NCBI RefSeq assembly: GCF_000172795.2
Contig: NZ_CP020947.1
Span: 1,739,001-1,803,000 of the forward strand
Length of the DNA: 64,000 nt
DNA from: Rhizobium sp. CIAT894
GTDB taxonomy: Bacteria; Pseudomonadota; Alphaproteobacteria; Rhizobiales; Rhizobiaceae
Reading direction: 5' to 3'
The notes beneath the pieces were generated by a model that was not told the origin of the DNA, did not search any database, and saw only the letters and a program-made list of their open reading frames with translations. Below are positions 26,521 through 32,571 of this stretch, in pieces. The translations under genes and the position numbers were made by a program. The stretch's first letter is position 1, and each line of letters starts with the position of its first letter.

Positions 26521-26742
26521 GGGATGTTCCGTGATGTGAGGCTGGTGAATAGGTAGCGCCCTTCGGCGGCTTTGCAAACAGCCGGCCGATGTCGCTGCCG
26601 CTGAAATGAAAGACGCAAGTGAATTTTCGTCTATGGGCGTTGAACACTGAGTTCCCGGGGGCAGGGCTTTGTTCGACCCTGGGCGCTGATACAACTTCGT
26701 CCCGGTCACGAAATTCAACCAGTGCACTCAGGAGACAAGAAG

Positions 26743-27339
26743 ATGGCGAAGGTTCTCGTCCTTTATTATTCGGCTTATGGCCATATCGAAACCATGGCCT
26801 ATGCTGTCGCCGAAGGCGCGAAGTCGGCCGGCGCCGAGGTTACCGTCAAGCGCGTGCCGGAACTGGTGCCGGAAGACGTTGCCAAGGCTTCCTACTACAA
26901 GATCGACCAGGCGGCTGCGATCGCCACCGTCGACGAATTGGCCGATTATGACGCCATCATCGTCGGCGCCGGCACCCGCTTCGGCACGGTTGCTTCGCAG
27001 ATGCGCAATTTCTGGGATCAGACGGGCGGCCTCTGGTTCGCCGGCAAGCTCGTCGGCAAGATCGGTTCGGTGTTCACCTCTTCGGCGACCCAGCACGGCG
27101 GCCAGGAATCGACCATCCTCGGCTTCATCCCCACCTTCCTGCACCAGGGCATGGTCGTTGCAGGCCTTCCCTATGCCTTCCAGGGCCAGATGGGCAACGA
27201 AGAAGTCAAGGGCGGCTCGCCCTACGGCGCTTCCACCATCACCAACGGCGACGGCTCGCGCCAGCCCTCCGAGATCGAACTGGAAGGCGCGAAATACCAG
27301 GGCGCCCATGTCGCCAGGCTCGCTGCCAAGCTCGCCTGA
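26743..27339 (+). CDS. wrbA: NAD(P)H:quinone oxidoreductase type IV (WrbA)
   Basis: A 198-residue flavodoxin-fold protein. The FMN phosphate loop is [21 protein letters not shown] at residues 4-24, followed by [24 protein letters not shown] around 75-98 and [15 protein letters not shown], all diagnostic of WrbA. It passes two electrons from NAD(P)H to quinones, avoiding semiquinone radicals. The start at 26743 is the methionine just before the first strand; an in-frame ATG 21 bases upstream is less likely. A hairpin followed by T-rich sequence lies 27 bases after its stop. Confidence 0.96.
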
Positions 27340-27462: not shown

Positions 27463-27750
27463 TGGTGCGGACGGCGGGGGTCGAACCCGCAAAGCCGAGG
27501 CCGAGGGATTTTCTTACCAGCTACGGCTTTCGCCGCCGCCTTCCGGCGTTTGTGGTCTGGACTATACCTTCACCTTAGCGTTGCCTTAGGTGCTGCCCGT
27601 CTAGTCTCTACACCTTCCCTTTGCAGGGCTTGGCTCGGGATTGCCATCTGACAGGTTTCCCCGACTTTGAGCAGTTCTACATCCGGCGTTTCCGCCGGCG
27701 CACTCAATTTGCTTTAAGTCCCTTGTGTCTACCGATTCCACCACGTCCGC
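27463..27750 (-). tRNA. tRNA-Leu(UAA) interrupted by a group I intron
   Basis: Read on the minus strand, the 5' exon (27750-27716, 35 nt) begins GCGGACGTGGTGGAATCGGT and ends in CTT; the 3' exon (27512-27463, 50 nt) begins AAAATCCCTCGG and ends in an encoded CCA. Joined, they form an 85-nt type II tRNA: a 7-pair acceptor stem GCGGACG/CGTCCGC, anticodon stem AGGGA/TCCCT around loop CTTAAAA giving anticodon UAA, a long variable arm, and T-stem GCGGG/CCCGC with loop TTCGACC. The interruption falls between the first and second anticodon bases, the same place as the known cyanobacterial and plastid tRNA-Leu introns. Confidence 0.93.
27513..27715 (-). other. Group I self-splicing intron in tRNA-Leu(UAA), 203 nt
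   Basis: The intron follows a U and ends with G, as group I introns do. Conserved core blocks are present in order: AATTGAG near the 5' end; the Q block AATCCCGAGCCAAGC at 27642-27628; the R block with GTAGAGACTAGACGG around 27610-27596; and the S block AAGGTATAGTCC at 27570-27559, where GACTA of R can pair with TAGTC of S to form P7. P1 can form between exon ACTT and intron GAGT with the required U-G pair at the splice site. No homing endonuclease frame is inside. The features fit the small tRNA-borne IC3 subgroup. Confidence 0.9.
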
Positions 27751-28116
27751 GTGGTTCTTCCTGCTAACAAACAGAGACGGTATTCTCAACCGATATTCAG
27801 GAGTTGTGATGCGATTCCGCTTCAAAGTTTGGAAGGTCCCATCGTGCCTGGCCACGGTTTCGAAAAGCGAATGCGCATCACGTAGTTGCAAATTGACATT
27901 GTTGCCACGCAAGGTCAGGATAGTTTGATTGCGAAAAATATTTCATGCAAGTTGGTGTGGCAATCCTAGCAAACTCCTGGGTGGCACAAGCTTGCTGGAT
28001 TTGGGGGAGCGTTAGGGAAAGTGCCGGAAGGCGTAGTGTTTACGATTTCTACTATTACAATACGTGCACTTCACTTCTCATGAAAACGCCGGGACGTATG
28101 GTGGCTTAAAGGGCAA
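27751..28116. other. Gene-free stretch between tRNA-Leu and the BTAD regulator
   Basis: This region must carry the tRNA-Leu promoter (minus strand) and that of the regulator (plus strand). Its composition is clearly AT-richer than the surroundings. I see no open frame with coding-like codons and no RNA fold I can name. A ribosome-binding sequence AAAGGG lies just before the regulator start at 28117. Confidence 0.5.
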
Positions 28117-30048
28117 ATGGTTTTTGTTCTGAAGACCTTCGGTAGATTGCAGCTCGTCGACGAGGACGGGGGCGTTGTAGCGTTTCCCGAGAAAGGCCTC
28201 TTGCTGCTTGCCTATTTGTTCACAACCGATCAGGGATCGGCGGATCGAACGACGCTGGCTCGCTTTCTATGGGGCGAAGCCGACAGGGACGTTGCACTGT
28301 CGACTTTGCGCAAGGTCATTTCCAGAATTAAGGCCCGTCAAATCGATCTCGGGATCGACATCCTCTCATCGCAGGGCAACATGCTCACTCTTGAGCGGGG
28401 TTCTCTGTCTTCCGACATTCTGCTGCCCGACGAAGAGGAAGGGGTCGAGCCGTTCTCCCGGCTGAAACAGTTGGTGAAGCTGATGAACCAGCCCTTTCTG
28501 GGAGCGGTTCAAAGCCATAGCCGACAGTTTCATCGCTGGCTCGCCGAGCGCGAAAATTACCATGTCGAGCTTCTGGCAAATACTTTGAGAACAGCGGCGC
28601 GATTGGCCCAGTCGCAAAAGGAGTCCGACCTTCTGAGGAAGGCTGCGGTCATCCTGTTTCGGACCGAGCCGAAGGATCCGGAAACGCTGCAATTGCTAAT
28701 CGGGATATTCAAGGCGGAAGACGAAGTCGAATCCGTTCGGACCTATTTTGAACAGCGGCGCAATTCGAGTTTGAGAGGCGTCACCGCGCGCGCCGACTCC
28801 GATGCCGGTGAAGCAAAATCCCTCCGTCTGGCCTCCGTGTCTTCAAAGCCGAAACGCGACGCGGCTCTTCCCCTTGAGCCCGAAGATATCCCGATTGCCA
28901 TTCCCCGCCTGGTGCTGCTTCCGCCGAAAAATCAATCCGTTCGGCCCCAAGCCGGTTTTCTCGCCGCATCCTTGGTGGAGGATATCACGATCGGATTTTG
29001 CGTCTTCAACAGCCTGGAGGTCATAGCCCCGTATTCGGCGGTTCAAATCGGTCACCACGTGGAGACGCAGAAGGCCTTCTTCGAACGGCATCGCGTCAAC
29101 TATATCCTCGACACCCGGATCAGCAATTCGGGCGATGAAGTGACCCTGTTCGCCCAGCTGATCTTTTTCGATCAGAATCAAATTGTCTGGGCCGAAAGGT
29201 TCAGCCTCGATCGTATGGATCTCGCCAGAGACAGAAGAGTGGTTGCCCGGCAGATCGCTCTCTCCGTCTCCGGCGAAATCGAGCGCCATGAGGCGTTGCG
29301 CGAAGATCTGAACCCGGCCGCTTATCACCGATATCTCGTCGGCCGGCGGCACCTGGCGCGCCTCACACTTCCGAACCTGCGGCGCGCCCGCAAGGAAATG
29401 AAAGCCGCGCTCGGAGAAAGCCCCGATTTCGCACCGGCGCTGAGTTCGATGGCGCGGACCTACTCCAAGGAATGGTTGTTGACGGCCCGGGGCGATATCG
29501 ATCTTTTGCAAGTGGCGGAGACTTTCGCCAAGCAGGCCACCGACATGCGCTCGGACTTCGCCGACGGCTATCGCGAGCGCGGTGTCGCCAAGCTGTTGCA
29601 GGGCGCGTTCGACGAAAGCGCCGAAGCGATGGAAGTGGCCGAAAGCCTTGCGCCCCACTATGCCGACGTGATCGCCGACTATGCCGACACCTTGGTTCAT
29701 TGTTCGCTCCCCGCCATGGCCTTGCGAAAGATCGAGCGGGCAATTGAACTGAACCCGCTCGGTCCCGACACTTATTTCTGGACCGCTGCGGGAGCAAACT
29801 ATGCCCTCGGCGAATTCGAAGCGTCGCTGGACTATATCGGGCAGATGGCCGATCCCAATTTGGCCGACAGACTGTCTGCTGCAAATTGGGCCATGTTAGG
29901 CCATCCGGACAAGGCGCGGATCTTCGTGAGAAGGTTTCGTGAAGGCAATCCGGACTTCGATGTGGACAAGTGGTTGTCCGCAGTTCCAAGTAAAGAGCAG
30001 TGGCATAAAGATCTTTATCGTGAAGGCCTGAAGAAAGCTGGATTTTAA
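28117..30048 (+). CDS. SARP/BTAD-type transcriptional regulator with TolB-like and TPR domains
   Basis: A 643-residue cytoplasmic protein with four parts. Residues 1-95 form an OmpR-like winged helix (FGRLQLVDEDGGVV, ARFLWGEADRDVALSTLRKV). Residues 105-225 form a bacterial transcriptional activation domain of helical repeats. Residues 265-385 (RLVLLPPKNQS, ASLVEDITIGFCVFNSLEVI, VNYILDTRISNSGDEV, IVWAERFSLD) match the TolB-like domain often found with rhizobial adenylate cyclases and TPR proteins. Residues 395-640 are TPR repeats. This is therefore a large sensor-regulator without a recognised ligand. A 72-residue unknown protein starts 26 bases downstream, probably in the same transcript. Confidence 0.8.
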   Translation: MVFVLKTFGRLQLVDEDGGVVAFPEKGLLLLAYLFTTDQGSADRTTLARFLWGEADRDVALSTLRKVISRIKARQIDLGIDILSSQGNMLTLERGSLSSDILLPDEEEGVEPFSRLKQLVKLMNQPFLGAVQSHSRQFHRWLAERENYHVELLANTLRTAARLAQSQKESDLLRKAAVILFRTEPKDPETLQLLIGIFKAEDEVESVRTYFEQRRNSSLRGVTARADSDAGEAKSLRLASVSSKPKRDAALPLEPEDIPIAIPRLVLLPPKNQSVRPQAGFLAASLVEDITIGFCVFNSLEVIAPYSAVQIGHHVETQKAFFERHRVNYILDTRISNSGDEVTLFAQLIFFDQNQIVWAERFSLDRMDLARDRRVVARQIALSVSGEIERHEALREDLNPAAYHRYLVGRRHLARLTLPNLRRARKEMKAALGESPDFAPALSSMARTYSKEWLLTARGDIDLLQVAETFAKQATDMRSDFADGYRERGVAKLLQGAFDESAEAMEVAESLAPHYADVIADYADTLVHCSLPAMALRKIERAIELNPLGPDTYFWTAAGANYALGEFEASLDYIGQMADPNLADRLSAANWAMLGHPDKARIFVRRFREGNPDFDVDKWLSAVPSKEQWHKDLYREGLKKAGF

Positions 30049-30366: not shown

Positions 30367-30482
30367 GCGGGCGCTGCATTGATATGATCACAGTCATTCT
30401 CGGTGCCGATCAAATCTACTCGGTTCTCGGCGGCAATCTATCGGCGTGGTGACGCGGGGTTCGATACCGCTCGCCCGCACCA
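30367..30482 (+). other. Decayed tRNA-like sequence (3' end with CCA)
   Basis: The last 24 bases, from GTTCGA to ACCA at 30459-30482, have exactly the length and order of a tRNA 3' end: T-loop TTCGATA, 3' T-stem, acceptor strand CGCCCGC and CCA. They match the tRNA-Leu(UAA) 3' end at 18 of 24 positions. A perfect acceptor partner GCGGGCG occurs at 30367-30373, 116 bases overall. The T-stem has mismatches and no D or anticodon arm can be drawn, so this is not a working tRNA. A tRNA relic or att remnant is possible. Confidence 0.4.
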
Positions 30483-30610
30483 CCTTCATATTCCGGTTTG
30501 AATATGCTGTATATTGTGTGTAAAAGCGCGTTATTGATTGACAATGACATTTTTGGTGCAAGGATTGCGCCGCGGCGATTGAGTAAGTGTTGTCTTGTGG
30601 GAGTAAGACG

Positions 30611-30742
30611 ATGGTTTACGATTGGAGTGGGGCAAAGGTTCGGCGCATCCGGATCTTCAAGACCAGTGTCGCGCTTGTTCTTGGAACAGCGCTGGCCGCG
30701 ATACCTCTGTTCTTCTGGGCCGTGCAGTTGCGTGGTTTCTGA
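30611..30742 (+). CDS. 43-residue single-pass membrane protein
   Basis: The frame runs from ATG at 30611 to TGA at 30740-30742. The product starts MVYDWSGAKVRRIRIFKTSV and continues with a hydrophobic helix of about 22 residues (ALVLGTALAAIPLFFWAVQL), then RGF. The basic stretch before the helix predicts an inside N-terminus. GGGAG lies seven bases before the ATG, a well-placed ribosome-binding site. The gene stands between the BTAD unit and the convergent vanZ gene. Function is unknown. Confidence 0.6.
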   Translation: MVYDWSGAKVRRIRIFKTSVALVLGTALAAIPLFFWAVQLRGF

Positions 30743-31320: not shown

Positions 31321-32571
31321 GTGACGAGACTTGATGTCGAAAGCGCCGAAGAGGCAATGCGCAGCCTTTTTCCGGCAACGCCGCTGCAACTCAATGATCA
31401 TCTCTCGGCGCGTTACGGGGCCGATATCTGGCTGAAGCGCGAGGATCTTTCGCCGGTGCGCTCCTATAAGATCCGCGGCGCCTTCAACTTCTTCCGCAAG
31501 GCGATCGGGCAGGGTGCTGCCGGCAAGACCTTCGTCTGCGCCTCAGCCGGCAATCACGCCCAGGGCTTTGCCTTCGTCTGCCGCCATTTCGGCGTGCCGG
31601 GCGTCGTCTTCATGCCGGTGACGACACCGCAGCAGAAGATCGACAAGACCCGCATGTTCGGCGCCGAATTCATCACCATCCGGCTGATCGGCGACTTCTT
31701 CGACCAGTGCTACCAGGCCGCACGCGATCATGTCGAGGCAATCGGCGGCGTCATGGTGCCGCCCTTCGATCACGCCGACATCATCGAGGGGCAGGCGACC
31801 GTCGCTGCCGAAATCATGCAGCAACTGCCTGATGGAACGGTGCCTGATATAGTCGTCCTGCCGGTCGGCGGCGGCGGGCTTGCCGCCGGCATTACCGGTT
31901 ATCTCGACGGCACCGTGCCGAAATCGGCCTTCGTCTTCACCGAGCCGGCCGGCGCGCCGAGTCTCAGGCGCAGTATCGAGGCGGGCAGGGTGACGACGCT
32001 TGCCAAGGTCGACAATTTCGTCGACGGTGCGGCCGTCGCCCGCATCGGCGACCTGAATTTTGCTGCTCTTTGCGATTTTCCGGCCGAACAGGTGCAACTG
32101 ATGCCGGAGAACGCCATCTGCGTCACCATCCAGGAGATGCTGAACGTCGAAGGTGTCGTGCTCGAGCCGGCCGGCGCCCTGTCGCTGACGGCGATCGCCG
32201 CGATGGACCGCCAAGCGATCCGCGGCAAGACCATCGTCGCAGTCGTCTCCGGCGGCAATTTCGATTTCGAGCGGCTGCCTGACGTAAAGGAAAGAGCCAT
32301 GCGTTACGCAGGGCTGAAGAAATACTTCATCCTGCGGCTTGCCCAGCGCCCCGGGGCGCTCCGGGATTTCCTCAATCTGCTCGGACCCGACGACGATATC
32401 GCCCGCTTCGAATATCTGAAAAAATCGGCGCGCAATTTCGGCTCGATCCTGATCGGTATCGAAACCAAGGCGCCGGAGAATTTCGCCCGGTTGATCGGAA
32501 ATTTCGAAGCTGCCGGCATGGGTTACGAGGATATCACCGAAAACGAGATCCTCGCCAACCTGATCATTTGA
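31321..32571 (+). CDS. ilvA: Threonine ammonia-lyase (short form)
   Basis: A 416-residue PLP enzyme that deaminates threonine to 2-oxobutanoate, the entry to isoleucine synthesis. The PLP lysine is in SPVRSYKIRGAFNFFRKA near residue 50, the phosphate-binding glycine loop is LPVGGGGLAAG near 182, and VVSGGNFDFERLPDVKERAM near 308 ends the catalytic domain. The C-terminal part (320-416, RYAGLKKYFILRLAQRPGAL) is a single ACT-like regulatory domain, half of that in E. coli IlvA. The GTG at 31321 is the best-fitting start; an ATG 13 bases upstream is out of frame. It stands as a single gene before hlyU. Confidence 0.93.
   Translation: MTRLDVESAEEAMRSLFPATPLQLNDHLSARYGADIWLKREDLSPVRSYKIRGAFNFFRKAIGQGAAGKTFVCASAGNHAQGFAFVCRHFGVPGVVFMPVTTPQQKIDKTRMFGAEFITIRLIGDFFDQCYQAARDHVEAIGGVMVPPFDHADIIEGQATVAAEIMQQLPDGTVPDIVVLPVGGGGLAAGITGYLDGTVPKSAFVFTEPAGAPSLRRSIEAGRVTTLAKVDNFVDGAAVARIGDLNFAALCDFPAEQVQLMPENAICVTIQEMLNVEGVVLEPAGALSLTAIAAMDRQAIRGKTIVAVVSGGNFDFERLPDVKERAMRYAGLKKYFILRLAQRPGALRDFLNLLGPDDDIARFEYLKKSARNFGSILIGIETKAPENFARLIGNFEAAGMGYEDITENEILANLII

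Follow-up and report, generated by a model that had tools for sequence, protein, structure and literature searches.

A group I intron splits the insertion core in a Rhizobium tRNA-Leu(UAA) gene that is probably the rescue gene of a decayed integrative element

The scattered group I introns of bacterial tRNA genes are said, in the title of a 1999 paper cited in PMC7717549, to reflect intron mobility. Bacterial tRNA introns are reported mostly from cyanobacteria and from a few alpha- and betaproteobacteria (PMC4033280) and also from initiator and Ile2 tRNAs (PMC8450103), and a tRNA-Arg(CCU) intron of a relative is reported to self-splice (PMC7717549). In Caldiarchaeum a tRNA-Thr locus combines a 5' tRNA fragment, a recombinase gene and a tRNA with an extra intron (Sugahara 2012, PMC3293823), and that paper suggests that the added intron may guard against further insertion, benefiting the element too; for the idea that introns shield archaeal tRNA genes from insertion it points to Randau and Soell 2008 (via PMC3293823). 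S. meliloti prophages inactivate tRNA-Leu(UAG) and carry a replacement whose similarity to the native gene does not exceed 80.6% (PMC11476347).

Here we describe a locus in a 64,000-nucleotide stretch of DNA from Rhizobium sp. CIAT894 (contig NZ_CP020947.1, positions 1,739,001 to 1,803,000), referred to in what follows as the window. With the known bacterial tRNA group I introns (cyanobacterial and plastid Leu(UAA), alphaproteobacterial Arg(CCU), e.g. BbgpI of B. bacilliformis, PMC7717549) it has in common the fold and the kind of host gene, and the cyanobacterial tRNA-Leu(UAA) intron occupies the same site, although a tree places the window's intron apart; what sets the present case off is a host gene that forms a xenologous cassette associated with integrative elements. 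The Caldiarchaeum locus has a near-identical layout and prompted the same idea of protection, but it is archaeal and a single locus, with a model in which the intron arrives on attP and the tRNA is reconstituted (PMC3293823), whereas our case is bacterial, spans many loci and combines a group I intron with a rescue gene that is separate and complete. As here, integration of the S. meliloti prophages breaks a leucine tRNA and the element supplies another; the main text of that paper, as far as accessible, does not contain the word intron (PMC11476347). Integrative mobilizable elements share with those described below an integrase beside a tRNA, a MobA/MobL relaxase (E 2e-52) and direct-repeat junctions, but the present elements break their target tRNA; most of the related integrases found adjoin intact class I tRNAs. 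Parts of this arrangement are already known, and, as far as our searches of open-access titles and abstract starts reach (older tRNA-intron papers lie outside their scope), no report of intron-bearing rescue tRNAs on bacterial integrative elements was found, so that a group I intron in the core of a bacterial element's rescue tRNA appears to be new.

The tRNA-Leu(UAA) gene lies on the reverse strand of the window and has three parts. Exon 1 (27716..27750, 35 nt) ends in GGACTT, which makes up the left half of the att core. The group I intron (27513..27715) is 203 nt long and is inserted between U34 and A35. Exon 2 (27463..27512, 50 nt) starts with AAAATCC, the right half of the core, and includes an encoded CCA. 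These boundaries, the position after the first anticodon base and the 85-nt joined tRNA with its CCA agree to the base with a first-pass annotation made from the sequence alone. The joined exons are called as tRNA-Leu(taa), and the unspliced gene is called only with introns allowed; because default ARAGORN calls no tRNA in the window, the warning in that annotation that intron-naive gene finders can miss the gene is borne out. The covariance-model search that it had proposed gives a full-length match of the intron to Rfam RF00028 with 60.3 bits (E 8e-13, cut-off 50).

P1 (ACUUAA/UUGAGU, 27702..27719, minus strand) places a U.G pair at the 5' splice site and P7 (27560..27606, minus strand) pairs GACUA at 27602-27606 with UAGUC at 27560-27564; P3 and the terminal G are present as well, and the P1, pairable P7 and terminal G that had been read from the letters are therefore all confirmed. 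We drew the structure by hand on the window sequence (P1, P2, P3-P9.1, P7 as a pseudoknot) and counted it over 21 diverse tRNA-Leu introns, in which 97.8% of 1123 cells are paired, P7 is paired in every cell (100%), the U.G pair of P1 is kept in 21 of 21 and compensatory changes are found at 24 of the 54 pairs, including 2 of 6 in P3 and 1 of 5 in P7. None of 500 shuffles reaches any of five measures, and sliding the structure by 1-3 columns lowers the pairing to 27-47%. By its covariance-model score, its pseudoknotted P3/P7 core with covariation and its U.G pair and terminal G the element is a group I intron, presumably of subgroup IC3. There is no endonuclease ORF within its 203 nt, which are too short for an endonuclease gene; of the listed ORFs of at least 90 aa only one, of 103 aa at 27601-27912, overlaps the intron, and it extends across exon 1.

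This intron is the only group I intron match found in the 6.66-Mb genome. By the wobble rules UUA codons need tRNA-Leu(UAA), and a genome tRNA search listed 44 other tRNAs, including Leu UAG, CAG, CAA and GAG and an intact Arg(CCU), and no intact tRNA-Leu(UAA). The list lacks Ile(GAU) and Ala(UGC) and is therefore incomplete; as an independent check, a pattern search of the genome for the uninterrupted anticodon arm GGNACTTAAAATNCC gave 0 matches, so that the uninterrupted tRNA-Leu(UAA), which the first-pass annotation had named as evidence against its reading, was found by neither route.

We scanned one genome per species (84,980 species) with a pattern that admits certain intron lengths only and thus does not amount to a census, obtaining at least 119 intron-bearing tRNA-Leu stretches, 118 of which were analysed (L122, ending at a contig end, was skipped). 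Going by their names, the 118 matches listed are from Pseudomonadota (88), Cyanobacteriota (11), Acidobacteriota (7), Bacteroidota (5), Vulcanimicrobiota (3) and Bdellovibrionota (2), with 2 unplaced; the initial assumption that an intron at this site is a hallmark of cyanobacteria and plastids does not survive these counts. Within the genus the window intron recurs at 90-100% identity in 25 of 148 genomes, while 12 further genomes have matches of 73-75% only, and the six of these that were inspected (L051, L230-L234) all lie within tRNA-Arg(CCU). A family-wide Rfam survey gave at least 38 of 394, a lower bound as five candidates were scored per genome, and the 7 matches in a phage collection were all partial, each covering less than 80% of the query.

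A quick tree of 127 introns, covering 80 of the at least 119 scan loci, omitting introns nearly identical to others of the genus and leaving many deep branches open, places the window in a 21-row set of tRNA-Leu introns from its own family (support 96), within the proteobacterial ones; the intron of Rhizobium sp. WYCCWR10014 falls inside the clade of the window's genus. Eight cyanobacterial rows, together with one bin named Tatlockia whose grouping there looks like misbinning, lie beyond a branch of 1.76 changes per column with support 100. The 18 tRNA-Arg(CCU) introns form one clade (support 99), and by inspection those of the family have a core in common with the Leu introns and differ from them in a few bases of the guide sequence.

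Comparison of genes within the genus is informative as to what has moved. Exon 1 reads GGT...GACAC in 25 of 25 intron-bearing genes and GGC...GACGC in 30 of 30 intact genes, the latter being the best-matching loci fetched and hence a non-random draw, with a mean exon-1 identity of 0.98 inside each group and 0.87 across groups. The genus's 25 intron-bearing genes have a 5' flank (promoter region) in common (27751..27798 in the window, minus strand); compared over 60 nt, 5' flanks have a mean identity of 0.78 among these genes (lowest 0.60), 0.57 among intact genes and 0.46 between the two kinds (highest 0.65). In their flanks the groups are thus distinct on average, with ranges that overlap slightly, while the exon-1 differences are without overlap; 3' flanks are dissimilar everywhere, among both kinds of gene. 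Genes similar to wrbA and ilvA bracket both kinds wherever they fall within the fetched stretch. Judged from these alignments, the mobile unit in the genus would be the whole gene with its 5' flank and intron, carried on integrative elements that break the native gene.

Such elements are found in five genomes, with sizes of 38 kb (G425), 51 kb (G496), 42 kb (G557), 32 kb (G483) and, in reduced form, 9.5 kb (G492). In all five the native 5' part, tRNA positions 1 (6 in G557) to 66-69, adjoins an integrase of a 407-aa type, the native 3' part, from positions 22-37 to 86, is at the opposite end, and the intron-bearing gene is inside, oriented opposite to the cut native gene. The native 5' part lacks the acceptor strand, so neither half is able to be a tRNA, and each of the five genomes has four tRNA-Leu(UAA) matches, none of them complete. 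A MobA/MobL relaxase is identified in G425 and G557 by Pfam and in G496 and G483 by similarity; with integrase, relaxase and att repeats in a tRNA gene these four are integrative mobilizable elements. The integrase scores above the Pfam cut-off for PF00589 in only 2 of 7 members tested and more weakly in the others, which counts against the reading set out below, and in these four elements it is below that cut-off. All six integrases found beside tRNA-Leu(UAA) in the family nevertheless have the TGLRPDE and LRHTY motifs and the C-terminal tyrosine, and the enzyme is a divergent tyrosine recombinase; NCBIfam offers a name for 0 of 6 and a PDB search returned nothing useful. The G492 element also carries TfuA and YcaO genes (L265, 6912-8827), a pair familiar from peptide natural-product clusters.

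The junctions point to the sequence at which insertion probably occurs. In Devosia (38 kb) and in B. lablabi, where the right end of the element is on another contig, they share GGACTTAAAATCC, the anticodon arm at tRNA positions 30-42; the shared core is AGACTTAAAATCC in a Caulobacter bin (7 kb) and GACTTAAAA in a Caulobacterales bin (50 kb), and in G425 and G496 the junctions share 18 and 17 bp starting with GGACTTAAAATCC. The remaining three do not fix the crossover point, which counts against the assignment, as the longest junction-shared stretch in G557 and G483 (24 and 22 bp) is beyond the anticodon arm, part of which is missing from the right end in G483, and the G492 junctions share 46 bp from position 22. 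The intron of the rescue gene cuts the 13-bp core 6/7. Among the matches listed the spliced arm is GGACTTAAAATCC in 80 of 118 loci and AGACTTAAAATCT in 34 of 118; the window holds no uninterrupted GGACTTAAAATCC, while 2 of the 118 stretches do contain one, a point against the explanation favoured below.

Few or no element genes are left at 20 of the 25 intron-bearing loci of the genus, the window among them, and what remains in the window can be read against the intact elements. The locus lies between a gene that we take to be wrbA-like (26722..27339, plus strand) and one that is presumably ilvA-like (31321..32571, plus strand). Next to the tRNA is a probable remnant of the element's TfuA gene (27853..27924, minus strand; 58% identity over 24 aa, E 1.4e-4, the best reversed-protein match having E 0.087), followed by a 643-aa ORF without a Pfam match (28117..30048, plus strand) that is retained next to the intron-bearing tRNA at 17 of 20 decayed loci and also occurs inside the G492 element. 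The 3' end of the native tRNA-Leu(UAA), positions 61-86, appears to persist at 30457..30482 (plus strand; 81%, E 0.003) and, while it is only 26 bp long with the next chance match at E 0.16, it lies within 73 bp that match the right junction of G492 (87.7%, E 1e-14), beside a 94-bp match to the remnant in G478 (96.8%). About 54 bp at 30580..30633 (unstranded) have counterparts in several intact relatives, where they are found at most a few hundred bp from the native tRNA gene, to one side of it or the other. There is no left element junction in the window, and no integrase match in the host genome at E 1e-60. Elsewhere the decayed locus of G523 retains an integrase fragment with YcaO and TfuA, native 3' remnants are found in G478, G471 and G506, and TfuA fragments in G456, G512, G477, G017 and G527. 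In an ilvA tree, which includes the 25 of 30 intact loci with enough ilvA but neither G425 nor G557, 19 of the 20 decayed loci form one set of 20 (support 99) together with G492; G523 adjoins this set, with G014, and the elements G483 and G496 are among intact genomes. The pattern reads as one old insertion followed by decay, plus separate later insertions.

The layout of a broken tRNA half, an integrase and an intron-bearing tRNA recurs beyond the genus. Among the matches listed a truncated tRNA-Leu 5' piece ending at position 34-45 lies upstream on the same strand in 23 of 118 loci (reversed-query control, 0 of 118): Alphaproteobacteria 16/71, Acidobacteriota 5/7, Gammaproteobacteria 1/4, Bdellovibrionota 1/2, Cyanobacteriota 0/11, Bacteroidota 0/5, Betaproteobacteria 0/7, Vulcanimicrobiota 0/3 and others 0/8. 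A fragment match was present at 30 of the listed loci. Seven of these do not enter the count: in L089 and L118 the match is on the opposite strand, in L156 it measures 16 nt, and in L102, L169, L171 and L190 it belongs to the gene itself. That 95 of the 118 listed loci have no truncated half counts against the explanation given below. In 14 of the 118 listed loci an integrase of this type immediately precedes the intron-bearing gene, with the same orientation and ending 21-146 bp from it, and in nine of these the truncated half comes before the integrase; none was seen in 11 further loci of the family (1.5-kb flanks) or in 4 plasmid stretches.

Starting instead from the integrase, a search of genus and family yields 31 loci. 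Six are beside a truncated tRNA-Leu(UAA), all with an intron-bearing gene in the same genome (on another contig in G322), and of the other 25, 23 have an intact tRNA for Lys, Met, Trp, Thr or Phe as their neighbour, while beside 2 no tRNA was found. A class-wide search of 385 genomes gave 14 loci in 12 genomes: 4 beside a truncated tRNA-Leu with an intron-type gene behind the integrase (3 whole; the fourth has an exon 1 that stops where the intron would begin and ends near a contig end), 7 next to intact class I tRNAs and 2 with none. At the remaining one, L424, an intact tRNA-Leu(UAG) that lacks an intron comes after a distant integrase (49-53%), on whose other side lies the 3' half of the native Leu(UAG); this is rescue without an intron. 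Integrases beside truncated tRNA-Leu(UAA) are therefore accompanied by an intron-type copy in the genome in 10 of 10 cases (9 whole, 1 cut by a contig end); 30 of the remaining 35 integrases (23/25 and 7/10) are beside an intact class I tRNA. The ten are not to be taken as independent events, since a small number of original associations may underlie the Rhizobium cassettes or even the entire set. Among the matches inspected, an intact tRNA-Leu(UAA) was seen in 1 of 16 named genomes searched for other copies (a Sphingomonadales bin); the intact tRNA-Leu(UAA) of the MAG G566, which has the module, counts against the explanation that follows. For tRNA-Arg(CCU) a truncated native 5' piece, positions 1-24/25, is upstream in 3 of 23 intron loci (L053, L075, L234; reversed control, 0 of 23).

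We consider it likely that the tRNA-Leu(UAA) of the window came as the rescue gene of an integrative element that has since decayed and has itself been domesticated, with the intron splitting and hiding its insertion core. An element with a divergent tyrosine recombinase, the presumed catalyst, would use the anticodon arm of the only tRNA-Leu(UAA) in the host as its insertion site, and insertion cuts the native gene into the two useless halves seen at the junctions. The complete tRNA-Leu(UAA) of the element would replace the lost gene, since no other copy was found. A plain rescue copy would contain the element's own insertion core; the intron does split this core in the DNA, and RNA splicing, to judge from the structure and from relatives, would restore the tRNA, so that the intron would most likely keep the integrase from recognising the rescue gene and in this way prevent self-insertion and re-invasion. 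In the lineage of the window the element would then have decayed, with the indispensable intron-bearing gene, a neighbour gene and remnants staying behind. The broader proposition, that a group I intron serves integrative elements as a mask at the DNA level, splitting the insertion site in the rescue tRNA so that neither element nor host can become a target again while RNA splicing keeps the tRNA working, we regard as having an even chance of being correct. If true, it would explain both the anticodon-loop position and the scatter of bacterial tRNA introns, and would extend to tRNA-Arg(CCU), where the 3 of 23 loci with a truncated native piece may be compared.

It is possible, if rather less probable, that the intron is a passenger, common beforehand in the donor that supplied the elements with their tRNA-Leu(UAA) and of no use to them. 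Introns at the U34/A35 site are indeed widespread among the matches listed in the pattern scan, and L424 and an S. meliloti prophage (PMC11476347) have intronless rescue tRNAs, so an intron is unneeded for rescue as such. A mere passenger would not be expected in the middle of the insertion core, however, nor in every one of the ten truncated-Leu integrase loci when intron-bearing genes are a minority in the genus. Gain of the intron by the native gene of this lineage, through reverse splicing or transposition from tRNA-Arg(CCU), might be suggested by the shared core and by a guide sequence only a few bases off, but it is improbable given an exon 1 that is unlike all 30 fetched intact genes at fixed positions, the less similar 5' flanks, a native 3' remnant elsewhere in the window, the separate clade of the 18 Arg introns and the fact that an intron-bearing gene with native 5' flank and D-arm occurs in 0 of 25 cases.

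Old vertical inheritance in the native gene with many losses, which could account for the broad spread over phyla among the matches listed, is very improbable, as intact relatives hold a different gene copy at the same locus and element junctions show replacement in five genomes; recent horizontal transfer from cyanobacteria is less credible still, since the identical insertion position is offset by the long, fully supported branch that sets the cyanobacterial introns apart. A cyanobacterial origin is hence rejected by the intron tree, and a recent hop from tRNA-Arg(CCU) by the tree together with the exon and flank comparison. Comparison of the intron with cyanobacterial and tRNA-Arg introns had been proposed in the first-pass annotation, which saw a bearing on intron transfer between tRNAs and lineages; that expectation stands in so far as there is evidence of transfer, but as far as the sequences go what has moved in this genus is the whole gene with its 5' flank and intron and not a bare intron.

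With the rescue-gene reading, a vehicle and a possible reason for the scatter of bacterial tRNA introns become visible, the vehicle being integrative elements that break an essential tRNA gene and repay with an intron-split copy. The loci would offer a testable bacterial case of introns shielding tRNA genes from insertion, an idea proposed for archaea, and they are instances of tRNA genes replaced by mobile DNA in which the intron-bearing copy is overlooked by a default gene finder.

Several further loci deserve mention. In G454, G455 and G252 a search with the native tRNA-Leu(UAA) gives nothing at E 0.01 and the spliced tRNA of the window is matched only weakly, with E about 1e-8; these genomes may have an intronless foreign tRNA-Leu(UAA) copy. 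In G014 fragments of tRNA-Leu are spread over two contigs (L331, L332), two of them 5' pieces and one a separate 3' half, with no intron found, and at L052 (G007) a group I intron match of 43.9 bits, below the cut-off, is outside any ARAGORN tRNA. In G400, of another genus, the native tRNA-Leu is cut after position 39 (L268, 6839-7337) and about 160 bp past the cut is an intron-bearing copy of another exon type, with an ilvA-like gene near.

Plasmids also carry the gene: a complete intron-bearing tRNA-Leu(UAA) matching that of the window is present in 1284 of 72,556 records, 1266 of which cover at least 80% of it, and 927 of the 1284 are predicted to be conjugative. No truncated tRNA half was found near the plasmid copies, which also counts against the explanation given above, and 37 of 40 copies among the matches listed have no annotated feature beneath them. 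The plasmid intron falls among those of Alphaproteobacteria, a hint as to the donor of the plasmid segment. In the four plasmids inspected (L082-L085, i.e. NC_004464.2, LR890263.1, CP033563.1 and CP012668.1) a gene of aac(3)-II type is nearby, and in two of them a tmrB-like ATPase is annotated near the intron-bearing tRNA.
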